Assembly: GCF_029269265.1 (NCBI RefSeq)
Contig: NZ_JARIXP010000011.1
Location: forward strand, 1 to 64,000
Origin: Rheinheimera sp. 1928-s
GTDB taxonomy: Bacteria > Pseudomonadota > Gammaproteobacteria > Enterobacterales > Alteromonadaceae
Direction: 5' to 3'
DNA: 64,000 nt
This document shows positions 6,829 through 64,000 of this stretch, piece after piece; position 1 is the first letter of the stretch, and the number at the start of each line of letters is the position of its first letter. The notes beneath the pieces were generated by a model, which saw only the letters and a list, made by a program, of their open reading frames with translations, had not been told where the DNA came from and made no database searches. The position numbers and the translations under genes were made by a program.

Positions 6829-7145
6829 CCTAAATTTTGTTCTCTGCTATCCAAAATATTGCCTCTAAAATGACGTTACTCCGTAACGTTAAACAACAGC
6901 AGGAGAGCCTTTTTCATAGCTTTAGCTGCCGAAGGCGAACATCACGGACGATGTGAGTAAAAAAAGTCCAAGCAATTCAAAAAAAATAAATTATTTTGTC
7001 ATCAAATCTTAAATAACTTCAGGTTCTTACTTAATGTCAATAGGGAAGAGCTAAGTTTATTAGTGGAACCTTTTCGGCATCTCAACTATCTATTAAGGTG
7101 CAACGTAAGTTGCTTGTTATTTATCAGATCGAGGAAGATTGCCTT
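6829..7145. other. Long leader/intergenic region upstream of rmf
   Basis: These 317 bases hold no credible gene. They contain the perfect dyad ACGTTAC/GTAACGT (6873-6889) and an A-rich stretch near 6958. The ribosome site GAGGAAG for rmf lies at 7131-7137. RMF is normally induced in stationary phase, so regulatory elements are likely here, but no clear promoter was recognised. Confidence 0.4.
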
Positions 7146-57642: not shown

Positions 57643-58953
57643 ATGGCAAAACCACTGCGTGTTTCGTTTTCTTATTTGCCGGAGCTGGCCGGTACTTTAC
57701 TGGCACCGCTGCTGATAGTGCTGCTGTGTTTACCGCTACGAGACTGGATAAGCCCGACTGACGTTGCCATGTTGCAATTGTTATGGGTGGCATGGCAGGC
57801 GCAGCATTATGGCTGGCGCTGGGCCTCGCTGACCACTTTGGTGTCGGTATTAATTTTGAACTGGTGTTTTGTGCCGCCCTATTACACTTTTGATGTGCAC
57901 GATGCCAGTTTCTTTATCAGCTTTGTGGTGATGGTGGTACTGGGGTTATTAATCAGTTTGTTGTCTGATCAGTCAAAACAGCAGTTAAAACGTTTGCGTT
58001 ATGCCATGTCACAAACCCGTGGCATGTATATGCTGGCCAAAGGTTTGGGCCAACGCCAAAACTGGTCACAACAATGTGCTTACGCAGCTAAATTATTAAG
58101 TCGCCGCTTAGGCGCTACTGTTCAGGTTGTTCAAGAACAGGAACCTACAGCAGTTGCGGAGCAAGCGATTTTGGCTGTTGGATCTCCTGCTTCCGCCTGG
58201 ATCCTGGTGCCTCCCTGCTTTTTATCAAGTCACGCAACTTTATTGCATACAGCTCAGTCTTTATTAGCGCAAAGTTATGCCCAGCTGGAATTGCGTGAAA
58301 AAGCACAACAAGACAGGGTTACAGCTCAACTGGAACAACAAAAAGCTATGCTGTTACGCTCGTTATCCCATGATTTACGTACGCCTTTAGCCACTATTAT
58401 GGGCGCATCCAGTATGTTGGCAGACCCAGAGCTGCAACTGAGCACAGCGCAGCGTCAACAACAGGCACAGAATATTTACCAGCAAAGCCAGATTTTAAAT
58501 CAGCATTTTGAAAAAGTGCTGGAGCTGAGCAAAGCCCAACTGACAGGGCATCAAATTCAGCTAACGGATTTCAGTTCAGACGATTTAGTGGCTGGCGCTT
58601 TGGCCAGACGAGGTGAAAAAGCCACAGAGTTAACTGCATCTTTGCACTGTAGCGCGGCGGAGTCTTTGTCAGGTGATTTGGAATTACTGGAAATTGCGCT
58701 GGCGAATATGCTGGAAAATGCCTTGTATCATGGGGCAGCCCCTTTCGAGTTGCAGATGGGACACAAAGGATCTGCTTTTTACATCCGGCTGACAAATGCT
58801 GTGAATGATCAAGCGCCGTCAAACCGGGATAAAGGCCATGGTTTGGGTATCAATATTTGCCGGGCTGTGGCTGGTTTGCATCAGGGTAGTTTTGAATTAC
58901 AGAGCAGCCCGCAGCTACAGCAAATCACAGCTGTATTGGAGTGGCCACGATGA
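57643..58953 (+). CDS. KdpD-like sensor histidine kinase, short form
   Basis: This is a 436-residue kinase. A four-helix DUF4118 membrane segment as in KdpD (about 15-110) precedes a linker/GAF-like part, a HisKA motif SHDLRTPLATIMGASSM (His at about 242) and a HATPase with LANMLENALYHG and KGHGLGINICRAV. The large N-terminal KdpD/USP domains of E. coli KdpD are absent. The stop overlaps the next start by four bases (ATGA). A K+ or turgor signal is inferred from the neighbours. Confidence 0.9.
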   Translation: MAKPLRVSFSYLPELAGTLLAPLLIVLLCLPLRDWISPTDVAMLQLLWVAWQAQHYGWRWASLTTLVSVLILNWCFVPPYYTFDVHDASFFISFVVMVVLGLLISLLSDQSKQQLKRLRYAMSQTRGMYMLAKGLGQRQNWSQQCAYAAKLLSRRLGATVQVVQEQEPTAVAEQAILAVGSPASAWILVPPCFLSSHATLLHTAQSLLAQSYAQLELREKAQQDRVTAQLEQQKAMLLRSLSHDLRTPLATIMGASSMLADPELQLSTAQRQQQAQNIYQQSQILNQHFEKVLELSKAQLTGHQIQLTDFSSDDLVAGALARRGEKATELTASLHCSAAESLSGDLELLEIALANMLENALYHGAAPFELQMGHKGSAFYIRLTNAVNDQAPSNRDKGHGLGINICRAVAGLHQGSFELQSSPQLQQITAVLEWPR

Positions 58954-59645
58954 ACAAAGGCACAGCAAAAGATCTCTCTGTCAGCCTGCTGGTGCTTGAA
59001 GACGACACCGGGCTACAAAGTTTCTTACAAACCCTGCTGGATAGTCAGGGCTATCAGAGTTTGATCACCGCTCAGGGTAAACAAGGCTTTGCTTTACTCA
59101 AGGAGCATAGTTTTGATTTGATTTTACTGGATTTAGGTTTAGCCGATATGGATGGCATTCAGTGGTTGCAGCAACTGCGCAGCTGGTCTGAAGTACCAGT
59201 CATTGTGATATCAGCCCGGGGCAAAGAGTTAGATAAAGTTCAGGCGCTGGATAGCGGCGCCAATGACTATGTCACTAAACCTTTTAGCTCAGCCGAGCTG
59301 TTAGCACGGGTTCGAGCCACACTGCGACAACAACAAAAAACCGCCAGGCCATTGGCTTTTGCCGACATCAAGCTGGATCCGGTGCAGCGCCTGGTGACCA
59401 AAGCCGGTGAAGCTGTGCATTTGACCAAAACCGAATACGATATCTTACTGTTGCTGGTGCGGCATTTAGGTTCAGCGCTGACGCATAACCAAATTTTGCA
59501 GCAAGTTTGGGGCGAACATTACCAGGACAGACCTGAGTATATTCGCGTCCATATGGCACAGTTAAGGCAAAAACTGGAAGATAACCCTTCAGCGCCACGG
59601 CATCTGAAAACCGAGGCTGGAGTTGGCTATAGGCTTTGTGAGTAG
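58950..59645 (+). CDS. KdpE-like response regulator (OmpR family)
   Basis: This is a 231-residue regulator. The receiver has LVLEDDTGLQSFLQTLL, phospho-Asp in LILLDLGLADMDG (about 60), VISARG and DYVTKPFSSAEL. The winged helix is VHLTKTEYDILLLLVRHLGSALTHNQILQQVWG, closing with RVHMAQLRQKLEDN. The ATG at 58950 overlaps the kinase stop. Its likely target is the trkH promoter at 56082-56123. Confidence 0.92.
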   Translation: MNKGTAKDLSVSLLVLEDDTGLQSFLQTLLDSQGYQSLITAQGKQGFALLKEHSFDLILLDLGLADMDGIQWLQQLRSWSEVPVIVISARGKELDKVQALDSGANDYVTKPFSSAELLARVRATLRQQQKTARPLAFADIKLDPVQRLVTKAGEAVHLTKTEYDILLLLVRHLGSALTHNQILQQVWGEHYQDRPEYIRVHMAQLRQKLEDNPSAPRHLKTEAGVGYRLCE

Positions 59646-61313: not shown

Positions 61314-61338
61314 AAGCTATCCTTATTTGTTATATGGT

Positions 61339-62211
61339 TTACTGCTTGGGTCTAAGAGTTTCAATAAATTGTGCGTCTACCCAGAATATGTCTACGTTTT
61401 CATGATTGCCCGGAGCCATATTTCGATTGAAAAAAAGATATTTACCATCCGATGTTACGCTGGCCATTGCTTCCCAGCCTTCGGTATTTATTTTGTCGCC
61501 TAAATTAATGGCTTCCCCCCATGTATCATCTTGCTGTCTATAGCTGATATAAAGATCTGAGTCGCCATAACCTCCTTCTCTTTTACTATCAAATATCAGA
61601 TAAGATTCATCTGCGGCTATGAAGGGATGAAAACTTTTTCCACTATTGATTTCTTTCCCCAGCAGCTTGGGTTCTTCATGTTTGCCATCTACCAATCGTG
61701 AATATCGGATATCCCCGGTAAAATCTCGTTTGAATTCATCAAAAAAGTAAGTACCTTTTGAAGATGCTGTAAGGCGCATGATAGGCAATGTGTCGAAAGG
61801 AGCACCCAGTTTTTTAACTTCAGACCAGCCAGTCTCAGTGCGCTCCTTGTAACGCTTACCTAAATGCATGGTTTTACCATCTGGCGCGATCAAAGGGGTT
61901 CCCACTCTTGGCGAAAAAACTGATTCATGCCACCCATTATTGGTATTTATAAAAACAACCATTTCTTGCTTTTCGCTGACCTTGTTATCTCGAATGAAAT
62001 AAAACTCATTGAGCTCAGGCGTGAACGCTCCACTAACTTCCCAACCTTCAGTAGAAACAATACCAGGTGCAAAAATTTCTGGCGTTGAACCGGGTGGCTT
62101 TTGCCCAAGGTAAGGGCCTGTTAGCACTGGAGATCCGTTTTCTGCATAACTTTCGCCAGCGACAAATAAAGCTGAAAACACCAGAGCCGCTGCCATATAA
62201 ATACGCTTCAT
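61339..62211 (-). CDS. Exported PD40/TolB-like beta-propeller protein
   Basis: This is a 290-residue protein with a signal peptide (1-23). Its repeats are of the WD40-like PD40 type, with blades around FTPELNEFYFIRD, IAPDGKTMHLGK, IAADESYLIFDSKREGGYGDSDLY and VTSDGKYLFFNRN. Function is unknown; such proteins bind partners or sugars at the cell surface or in the periplasm. AATAAGGATAAATT precedes the ATG. Composition is more AT-rich than the housekeeping genes. Confidence 0.8.
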   Translation of the reverse strand: MKRIYMAAALVFSALFVAGESYAENGSPVLTGPYLGQKPPGSTPEIFAPGIVSTEGWEVSGAFTPELNEFYFIRDNKVSEKQEMVVFINTNNGWHESVFSPRVGTPLIAPDGKTMHLGKRYKERTETGWSEVKKLGAPFDTLPIMRLTASSKGTYFFDEFKRDFTGDIRYSRLVDGKHEEPKLLGKEINSGKSFHPFIAADESYLIFDSKREGGYGDSDLYISYRQQDDTWGEAINLGDKINTEGWEAMASVTSDGKYLFFNRNMAPGNHENVDIFWVDAQFIETLRPKQ

Positions 62212-62572
62212 AATTTATCCTTATTAAAGAGCTCAACTTAACTAAACAGGCTTTAAAGTAGTACACATATCGCCACCGTATTGAAGCTTGTTTTCATACT
62301 GAGAGTTTCGTTATGGTTGCCCTGATTAAGATGAGCCGAGCTTGGGCCGCTGATGCTTGTGTCTCCAACCTGTTGTGACCAGAGGGTGGGTATTCGGGAT
62401 AAAGCATTTCTTCCGGCTTGATGCCGTGCGACTATAGCGCCCAATAAATCCGCTTATTTCGTATTATCATTCCAGGGCTGGGGGGACACCCGAAAGCGTT
62501 TTATAGCGGCACCGCCAAGCATCCCGATAAATTTTGTTGCCAGGAAAGGAGACTATGCCTCACATCGAATTA

Positions 62573-62618
62573 GAAAAACCTATAGGGTCAAGTCTGAAAA
62601 ACCTATAGGGTCAAGTCT
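62573..62618. repeat. 23-base tandem duplication
   Basis: Two adjacent perfect 23-base copies (62573-62595 and 62596-62618) have the core ACCTATAGGGTCAAGTCT. The second runs on into the palindrome GGGTCAAG-TCTTGCCC. Confidence 0.9.
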
Positions 62619-62752
62619 TGCCCTGTGCCCCGTCAAATCAGAACCAAACAAAAATGTTCATAAAATCAAAAAATAATAGAAAAACATCACCAATTCATTC
62701 ACAACTAATGATGTCCCCCTAAAAAATCGGGGCATGGGTCAAGACTTGCCCC
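62608..62752. repeat. Pair of GGGTCAAG-type palindromes flanking an AT-rich block
   Basis: GGGTCAAGTCTTGCCC (62608-62623) and GGGTCAAGACTTGCCCC (62736-62752) are each near-palindromic and lie as inverted copies around an AT-rich interior. This is the architecture of a small palindromic element or MITE related to REP elements. Confidence 0.6.
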
Positions 62753-62770
62753 CAATACTCTTAGCCGCCA

Positions 62771-63577
62771 TTACGGTTGCCCCGACATAACACCTTGAAT
62801 CCATTGTTTATAATGATTCAGTCGAACATTACAAGTGACTTGGCCGTATCGCCCTGGTGTTCTGTTCGTACTTTGCAGATCAGTCCAGGAAGTCAAACCG
62901 GCTAACAGCCATCCTGTTTTATCCTCAATCAAAACTGGTCCACCGCTATCGCCATTTCCTGATCCGCCTTCAAGAGGTAAAGCATCCACTGAGTTGTCAA
63001 ACAGATAGCAGATCCATCGGCCATCCGCGCTCGTGACCTTATTGTACGCACGACGAAGTTCAGTACGATGTGGGTCGCTGAATTCATAACCACTCAAACC
63101 ATTCCCTGTAGCGCCTTTTCCGATAACCTTAACTATTTGTCCGAACTCACTATTGCCACTAAAAATAGACGCAGGTACAACATCGGTGATGGGCTTTGCT
63201 AATTTCAGCAGAGCGATGTCATCCGACGAAGCGAGCAGAACCCTGAAAAGCGTCCAATCCCAGGTCGCTAGAGCTTGTTCGAGTAGTTGCTTTGGCGGCG
63301 CTTTATAACCGGGATGTATCTCAATACGCTCAACAACTCGAGGTGTACCGCCCACCATGACTTGTTTGATTTCAGCTTGCCATGTGATCGCATGAGCGGC
63401 GGTAATAATCCACTGTGGCGCAATTAATACACCATGCCCCTCAACGGGCATGTCCGCCAGAGCTGGAAACTCAGTTGCCTGAATTCGATACTTTGAATCG
63501 TCAACGTCGTGTCGAATCACAATGGCGTTTAGGCTAAAAGACAAAGCAAGCAGTGTGAAAAGCAAAACTTGAGGCAT
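62771..63577 (-). CDS. Exported trypsin-like serine protease (S1 family)
   Basis: This is a 268-residue protein with a signal peptide (1-18). The catalytic triad is visible: His in IITAAHA (about 61), Asp in SSDDIALLKLAKP (about 119) and Ser in GNGDSGGPVL (about 211). Two cysteines may pair. AAAGGAAATATAA precedes the ATG, which lies 30 bases past the end of an attC site, as the start of a gene cassette would. No attC is seen behind it. Confidence 0.88.
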   Translation of the reverse strand: MPQVLLFTLLALSFSLNAIVIRHDVDDSKYRIQATEFPALADMPVEGHGVLIAPQWIITAAHAITWQAEIKQVMVGGTPRVVERIEIHPGYKAPPKQLLEQALATWDWTLFRVLLASSDDIALLKLAKPITDVVPASIFSGNSEFGQIVKVIGKGATGNGLSGYEFSDPHRTELRRAYNKVTSADGRWICYLFDNSVDALPLEGGSGNGDSGGPVLIEDKTGWLLAGLTSWTDLQSTNRTPGRYGQVTCNVRLNHYKQWIQGVMSGQP

Positions 63578-63606
63578 TTATATTTCCTTTGATGTTCCCT
63601 TCGACG

Positions 63607-63660
63607 GTTAACTTCTCAATCAGCCGACGCGTCAGCGGTCGGCTGCATTGAGTTGTTAGC
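63607..63660 (-). repeat. Integron attC site
   Basis: The 54-base site, read on the minus strand, has all attC parts. R'' is GCTAAC, an AA spacer follows, and L'' is CTCAAT-G-CAGCCGAC with one extrahelical G. After a 9-base terminal loop comes L' GTCGGCTG-ATTGAG, which pairs perfectly with L''. Then come an AA spacer and R' GTTAAC. R'/R'' carry one mismatch. The metallo-hydrolase gene reads into it: its last 13 codons and stop lie inside. Confidence 0.88.
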
Positions 63661-64000
63661 ATTAGTTGAACCACTCGATTTAAGCTCTTCTTTGACCTCT
63701 TCAGTGGCCGACTCTTCTTGTTGCTCAATAAATTGGGAGAAGTTCTCCTGACTAATGAATGGATTGATGGTTTTGTATTTGGCACTGATCCCGCGATTAG
63801 AAAACAAATTGTTCTTATGCGGATGATTGGATAGGTTGACTGTTACTGCGGGGCTTTGCGTTGCTATCTTCTTGATGCGAGCCATGCTAGCCATAAACTG
63901 CTTGGCAAGACCAGGTTTTTGGAAATTTGCTCCATGCCCACCAACTACAAACGCGCGATATTGCTTGCCTTTATCTTCCACGAAGAAGTCGATGGACAGG
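63616..64000 (-). CDS. Metallo-beta-lactamase-fold protein, C-terminal part
   Basis: The gene is cut by the right window edge; about 128 residues are visible and the frame stays open to base 64000. FFVEDKGKQYRAFVVGGHGANFQ and the zinc-site-like NLSNHPHKNN resemble the C-terminal part of subclass-B3-type MBL proteins. A zinc hydrolase is likely, but lactamase activity cannot be claimed from this fragment. The tail NNSMQPTADASAD is translated from the attC site, a frequent feature of integron cassette genes. Confidence 0.7.
   Translation of the reverse strand, partial: LSIDFFVEDKGKQYRAFVVGGHGANFQKPGLAKQFMASMARIKKIATQSPAVTVNLSNHPHKNNLFSNRGISAKYKTINPFISQENFSQFIEQQEESATEEVKEELKSSGSTNANNSMQPTADASAD

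Follow-up and report, generated by a model that had tools for sequence, protein, structure and literature searches.

The integron attC site at positions 63606-63661 of the window probably closes a gene cassette in an array whose attI is a satellite copy, located between eda and a KdpE-like response regulator, where there is no integrase gene and where an integrase encoded at a distant locus would act in trans. The window is the 64,000-nucleotide stretch of Rheinheimera sp. 1928-s DNA that we analyzed; it belongs to contig C3 of the assembly, which runs on for 5142 bases past the window end.

An attC site at the end of a metallo-hydrolase gene

A preliminary description, made from the letters alone, had placed an integron attC site where a metallo-hydrolase gene ends and had read in it R'', L'', a terminal loop, L' and R' with two-base spacers. 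Anatomy, folding and a covariance model bore this out. The parts of the site are as follows.

63606..63661, minus strand in cassette orientation, with the plus strand as the recombining bottom strand: attC site of the metallo-hydrolase cassette (anatomy, folds, scan, covariance model)
63606..63612, minus strand: R' core box, GTTAACC on this strand (sequence and fold)
63615..63628, minus strand: L' arm, in which the upstream gene has its stop codon (sequence and fold)
63638..63652, minus strand: L'' arm, with extrahelical base 63646 and, in the fold, a second unpaired base, 63637 (sequence and fold)
63655..63661, minus strand: R'' box, TGCTAAC on this strand (sequence and fold)

On the bottom (plus) strand, two nucleotides follow R' and two precede R'', giving a 2x2 spacer, and the tip of the hairpin is 63629-63637. 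When compared with the complementary R-box consensus RYYYAAC and GTTRRRY, AAC and GTT are exact and 5 of 8 further positions agree; 5-6 of the 7 pairs can form between the boxes, a 6-bp pairing of which one pair is G-T. The L''/L' stem consists of 8 + 6 bp flanking base 63646. In the minimum-energy DNA fold, base 63637 is unpaired on the same arm, 8 bp off. According to a passage of PMC10127599, attC sites carry two to three extrahelical bases; the site here has one clear extrahelical base, 63646, and a possible second, 63637, whose position outside the helix hinges on a stem of 2 bp that is itself weak. The earlier reading had a single extrahelical G within 54 bases; the span is 63606-63661 with both 7-bp R boxes counted (54-56 bases). 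The gene does end inside the site as first described, with its TGA stop (63618-63616, minus strand) in L' and its last 13 codons (63619-63657) within the attC.

The hairpin is far stronger than chance would give. Fold z-scores were -4.89 for 71 nt on the plus strand, -5.12 for 71 nt on the minus strand and -6.10 for 60 nt on the plus strand, with 0/200 shuffles equally good each time. In a scan for attC anatomy, 63606-63661 was the top match of the window with a score of 24.0; among dinucleotide shuffles, 493 kb contained no match of at least 23, and 960 kb contained two, which scored 23-24. We also trained a covariance model on six further attC sites, with the target left out; it matched the target on the plus strand at 47.9 bits (E 1e-11), the six training sites having all been picked by the anatomy scan and one of them, L179:1580-1635, being closely related to the target. 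The absence of such a match had been named beforehand as grounds for rejecting the site. The same model gave 23.2 bits on the minus strand, its runner-up match had an E of 0.77, and the stronger strand is the one expected to recombine for a minus-strand cassette. In genome G008, the attC of the target's type (L179:1580-1635) comes after a different gene. A search of the window against Rfam at the gathering level returned three tRNAs and nothing else; these are tandem genes with equal scores at 241-585.

When 246 genomes of the family were sampled, four, this one included, had the hydrolase, and two of the four carry it at 52% and 41% identity. For two homologs from other genera, the local matches end at residues 301 and 297 of 323, ahead of the attC-encoded tail, which speaks weakly against a tail that is intrinsic to the gene.

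An array of seven attC sites

The layout had been taken to be that of an integron gene cassette, and further attC sites had been proposed as a check. We found a same-strand array with seven attC sites, in which the target is the last and the six others, of mixed strength, lie past the window end. The features of the window that belong to the array or flank it are as follows.

58941..59645, plus strand: KdpE-like response regulator, which flanks the satellite locus on the left and is conserved there (best NCBIfam match KdpE, 213.5 bits, below the cut-off of 325)
62575..62760, no strand assigned: repeat with inverted GGGTCAAGTCTTGCCC-like ends, identified by eye, with similar stretches in G002 at 94% and 92%
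62771..63577, minus strand: trypsin-like serine protease gene, the last gene of the array, which travels with the hydrolase cassette
63616..64000 and on to C3:64587, minus strand: gene for a hydrolase of metallo-beta-lactamase fold, 3' part in the window (ORF and domain matches)

From the trypsin-like gene rightwards the main ORFs are all on the minus strand, in the order trypsin-like protease, metallo-hydrolase, 108-aa protein, PF00144 serine hydrolase, and proteins of 185, 157, 184 and 171 aa. The nearest profiles to the metallo-hydrolase (C3:63616-64587) are those of subclass B3, whose cut-offs it does not reach (127 vs 240 bits), and a second cassette, L011:4977-6347 (PF00144), also encodes a hydrolase of beta-lactamase fold; both activities are putative. 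The repeat at 62575..62760 starts just past the expected start of the attC of the trypsin cassette, and that attC is absent. Further left, a PD40-repeat gene (window 61327-62228) has a 96% second copy at C1:280788-281689, with attC-like sites near it, and copies in G010 and G012.

Individually, the other sites vary. Four of the six scored 15.5-18.2 in the scan, within the shuffle range. The remaining two, L011:4885-4972 and 7026-7120, scored below 13 and folded poorly (z -1.23 and 0.06), and are supported by similarity to the attC sites of other arrays. Of these six sites the covariance model recovered two, with E values of 0.0022 and 1.4. We accepted weak single sites because they are placed between same-strand genes and resemble the sites of relatives. 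At the far end of the array is an IS91-type segment whose attC-like end scored just 16.1; one stretch there had a z of -5.39, and a 70-base stretch prefers another fold. We infer that this segment is a true cassette, so the first unit of the array looks like an IS91-type cassette and the hydrolase cassette is the next-to-last.

The array, comprising the target and six sites of varied strength without an intI, is a CALIN by the usual definition, for which we used the threshold of two or more attC sites given in a passage of PMC12444791. More clusters of attC homologs lie away from intI elsewhere in the genome, at C1:874803-876809 (L127), C21:16700-18700 (L175) and C1:280364-282400 (L174).

Probable position of the array in the genome

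One contig of the relative G012 carries, in order, a KdpE-like regulator, an array, an attI copy and eda; its left part matches C3 and its right part matches C21. The arrangement of regulator, attI and eda on one contig was present in 5/5 relatives tested, and by tblastn none of the five had an intI there; attC homologs lay between regulator and eda in 4/5. At the G016 locus no attC homolog was found, and the structural scan gave one strong site (25.3). In our genome, the end of C21 consists of an IS91-type element described below, then an attI copy, then eda, which is above its NCBIfam cut-off, and edd. By tblastn, neither C3:60001-69142 nor C21:210001-222869 contains an intI, a locus call that depends on the inferred join of C3 to C21. 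With this join, no intI lies beside the attI and array at the window locus.

C20 ends in a YcxB cassette and continues into C14, from which it differs by one base in a 105-base overlap, and the end of its array matches the intI-bearing contigs of G002 and G012, past their arrays. Given the synteny of the relatives and these C20 matches, the window array is most likely located at the intI-less locus between the regulator and eda, and C20-C14-C22 is most likely the intI locus, which has a separate attI and the longer of the two arrays. Both sets of contigs, C3-C21 and C20-C14-C22, were joined only via shared repeats and synteny. Of the two origins first suggested, a sedentary chromosomal integron tail or a CALIN, the second holds and the first is contradicted by synteny.

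The integrase and its attI

It had been noted that the window holds no integrase, and the lack of one nearby had been listed as an objection. The integrase is present at another locus, on C22. IntI (C22:2531-3502, 323 aa) is intact; it scored 462.5 bits against TIGR02249, for which the curated cut-off is 265, and aligns along the whole protein to the solved IntI4 structure 2a3v (residues 1-319, E 3e-132). The genome has nine tyrosine-recombinase matches, of which no other exceeds the integron-integrase cut-off, and 0/14 control genomes had a match above it. Ahead of intI on C22, at a distance of 17 bases, is a LexA-like box, CTGTTTATTTAAACAG.

We aligned the region upstream of intI among 13 intI loci, our own and 12 others. 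In nine of them homology extends to the GTT and ends directly past AAATTGTT, beyond which each has a different sequence; this marks the segment as attI, with cassettes joining at its GTT and on one side only. G014 runs into the same element as C22, and G003, G005 and G013 were too diverged. A promoter scan at attI found 1 promoter where 0.7 were expected, giving no support for a Pc promoter. By eye, the minus strand at L010:2306-2345 has a short ORF (ATGTTCGACTTGCGGGCAG...), a candidate leader peptide, that extends into the core of attI. In G001, G002 and G012 (L056, L054, L058) the match to intI ends past residue 277 of 323, at a DNA insertion of ~75-90 bases, and these integrases are apparently broken. 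A second IntI-like protein, more distant (44-49% identical), is encoded elsewhere in G002, G010, G012, G014, G015 and G017; in G015 it is the only one.

Dispersed attI copies

With a 231-base attI query we obtained 105 matches in 18 of 22 Rheinheimera genomes, up to 13 per genome and 8 in our own, a count that includes the copies at intI loci and partial matches. From these, the 26 copies away from intI in the regions examined were analyzed for neighboring attC sites; nine of them represent one locus, that of eda, in as many genomes. We left out matches whose start lay beyond query position 60, which among the loci examined were G000:C19:311576, C20:497196 and, in L177, a second short match. 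The test was run first with the structural scan for attC and then with BLAST for attC homologs. The scan alone gave the weaker result, with 14 matches in 56 kb on the cassette side versus 6 in 63 kb on the other. By BLAST within at most 3 kb, attC homologs lay on the cassette side of 17/26 copies and on the other side of 0/26, all in cassette orientation. The eda locus contributed 6/9 and other copies 11/17. Three of the nine copies without an attC homolog have less than 1 kb of flank.

Shared flanks connect G000:C24 with G015 and G021, and G021 with G016, and suggest that further orthologous satellite loci exist. The eda-side copies retain the LexA-like box, which most other copies lack. The retained box (CTG-N10-CAG, 11-12/16 to the LexA consensus) stands at the eda-side attI though intI is absent there, in L104, L126, L128, L129, L107, L108 and L178. 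G016 and G021 have an eda-side attI copy and no IntI match at E<=1e-60, so the copy there would not be served at present and some copies would be idle.

Probable cassette movement and alternative explanations

The mechanism that we consider most likely follows the known reaction, in which, according to a passage of PMC11023631, the substrates of IntI are the folded bottom strands of attC and a double-stranded attI, where the cassettes go in. One IntI, encoded at another locus, would act in trans on the window's array: it would recombine the folded bottom strand of the attC sites and excise cassettes, which could then enter either attI copy at its G^TT core. Use of the satellite attI by IntI, and expression of cassettes there, are the predicted parts of this scheme.

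A different history is conceivable, in which a complete integron once lay between regulator and eda, lost its intI, and left an inert attI and attC sites. The attI copy extends past the LexA-like box and stops ~17 bases short of where intI would start, as a remnant of this kind might, the attC of the trypsin cassette has been lost, and in G016 and G021 the copy persists although neither has an IntI match. Against this, tblastn found an intI remnant in 0/9 loci tested, and cassettes appear to have moved lately. Over its 1777 bases the hydrolase-trypsin block (C3:62761-64537) shares 97.1% identity with its counterpart in the intI-locus array of G012, compared with 88.9% for intI and 87.4% for the S46 peptidase (87-89% for neighboring genes). 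The right end of the block falls in the next attC (C3:64537, within the site 64530-64577), and its left end is the start of an R'' box. The element tails at the two attI sites are identical (229/229 bases, which are contig-end sequence), whereas the attI copies themselves agree at 179/209 (14% different); in G014 the figures are 109/109 and 187/209. The YcxB cassette is present in both arrays, and over 630 bp two contigs differ in it by a single mismatch each. Together the element tails, the YcxB cassette and the 97.1% block suggest recent cassette movement, and we regard a dead remnant as fairly unlikely.

The dispersed 200-bp segment might also be some other repeat, such as a miniature transposon or a regulatory leader, that merely resembles attI. 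It is multi-copy, its two subtypes differ just within the core, and its conserved body exceeds the length that an attI should need. We consider this improbable: in nine aligned intI loci cassettes join exactly at the segment's GTT, attC homologs are confined to the GTT side, and the far end varies between copy groups with no common terminus seen.

More doubtful still is an ordinary sedentary chromosomal integron in which C3 passes through the IS91-type element into attI and intI on C22. The element in question (2.3 kb, C22:1-2305, L010) encodes an IS91-family transposase and a tyrosine recombinase and abuts attI on C22. The final 298 bases of C3 are its start and equal C22:1-298, and with such a join cassettes and intI would diverge in the usual manner. 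The same 298 bases also end C14, however, and on C21 this element forms the contig end on a path into eda. The five relatives with an intI-less attI between regulator and eda, and the match of C20 to the intI-bearing contigs of two relatives, are at odds with the join as well, and on this synteny we set it aside as very improbable. We also rejected the idea that C14 and C3 are variants of one array, with and without a part, in a mixed culture, since the YcxB cassette and the element are both two-copy, their second copies lying at the ends of C20 and C21, respectively. The element is bounded by integron core points; it is found at the contig ends of C21 and of C11/C6 in G014, and a 68% relative lies next to attI-intI in another genus (G125, L111).

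Finally, a transcription terminator or a chance product of the coding sequence can be dismissed as a reading of the hairpin, for strong as it is at the 3' end of a gene, its boxes, spacers and extrahelical base are all in position, the covariance model shows a strand preference, and its attC type follows another gene in G008.

Discussion

Integrons are commonly pictured as one integrase next to one attI. The attC of the window is nothing out of the ordinary in itself; what stands out are the arrays at satellite attI copies, on which the integrase presumably acts in trans. For the genus as a whole, we give an even chance to the broader proposal that Rheinheimera carries a family of attI landing sites that lack an integrase, of which some occupy the same locus in several species, each with a changing array of its own and all with one integrase acting in trans, probably under SOS control. 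Among the papers listed by our literature search, in which subscription papers were mostly outside coverage, none dealt with attI copies dispersed in this way or with the integrons of Rheinheimera.

Several known systems come close. CALINs are described in Shewanella as attC clusters without an integron integrase (PMC9229058), and in Xanthomonas they recur at conserved loci (PMC12444791); as here, several attC cassettes lie distant from intI. The array studied here differs in that an attI copy heads it and belongs to a dispersed family, features absent from the passages of those two papers on which we draw. The intI locus C20-C14-C22 resembles a sedentary chromosomal integron of the Vibrio type, with an IntI nearest to IntI4 (2a3v) among solved structures, an attI and many cassettes, but the window array is at a separate, intI-less locus. 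Cassettes also occur outside integrons at attG, genomic insertion sites distinct from both attC and attI, and those share a short consensus where we see a common 200-bp attI segment (passages of PMC12444791). The Delta-attI-type cassettes of mobile integrons likewise place attI sequence away from intI, although according to PMC12901181 this is a truncated attI within mobile-integron cassettes, in contrast to the separate chromosomal loci found here. Beside a Shewanella attC, as a passage of PMC9229058 describes, the IS91-like ISShvi3 yields a new cassette structure through an element of the IS91 family; in our case an element with a tyrosine recombinase gene comes first at two attI copies in one genome.

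If the dispersed attI copies are used in trans, some CALINs would be addressed landing sites, beyond debris or chance insertion. Software that relies on attC clusters and intI would class such loci as CALINs and overlook the attI. An integrase would then have many platforms instead of one. Rheinheimera could serve as a test system, since it offers species with IntI and species with attI copies but without an IntI match, and within one genome it offers identical cassettes at two attI copies.
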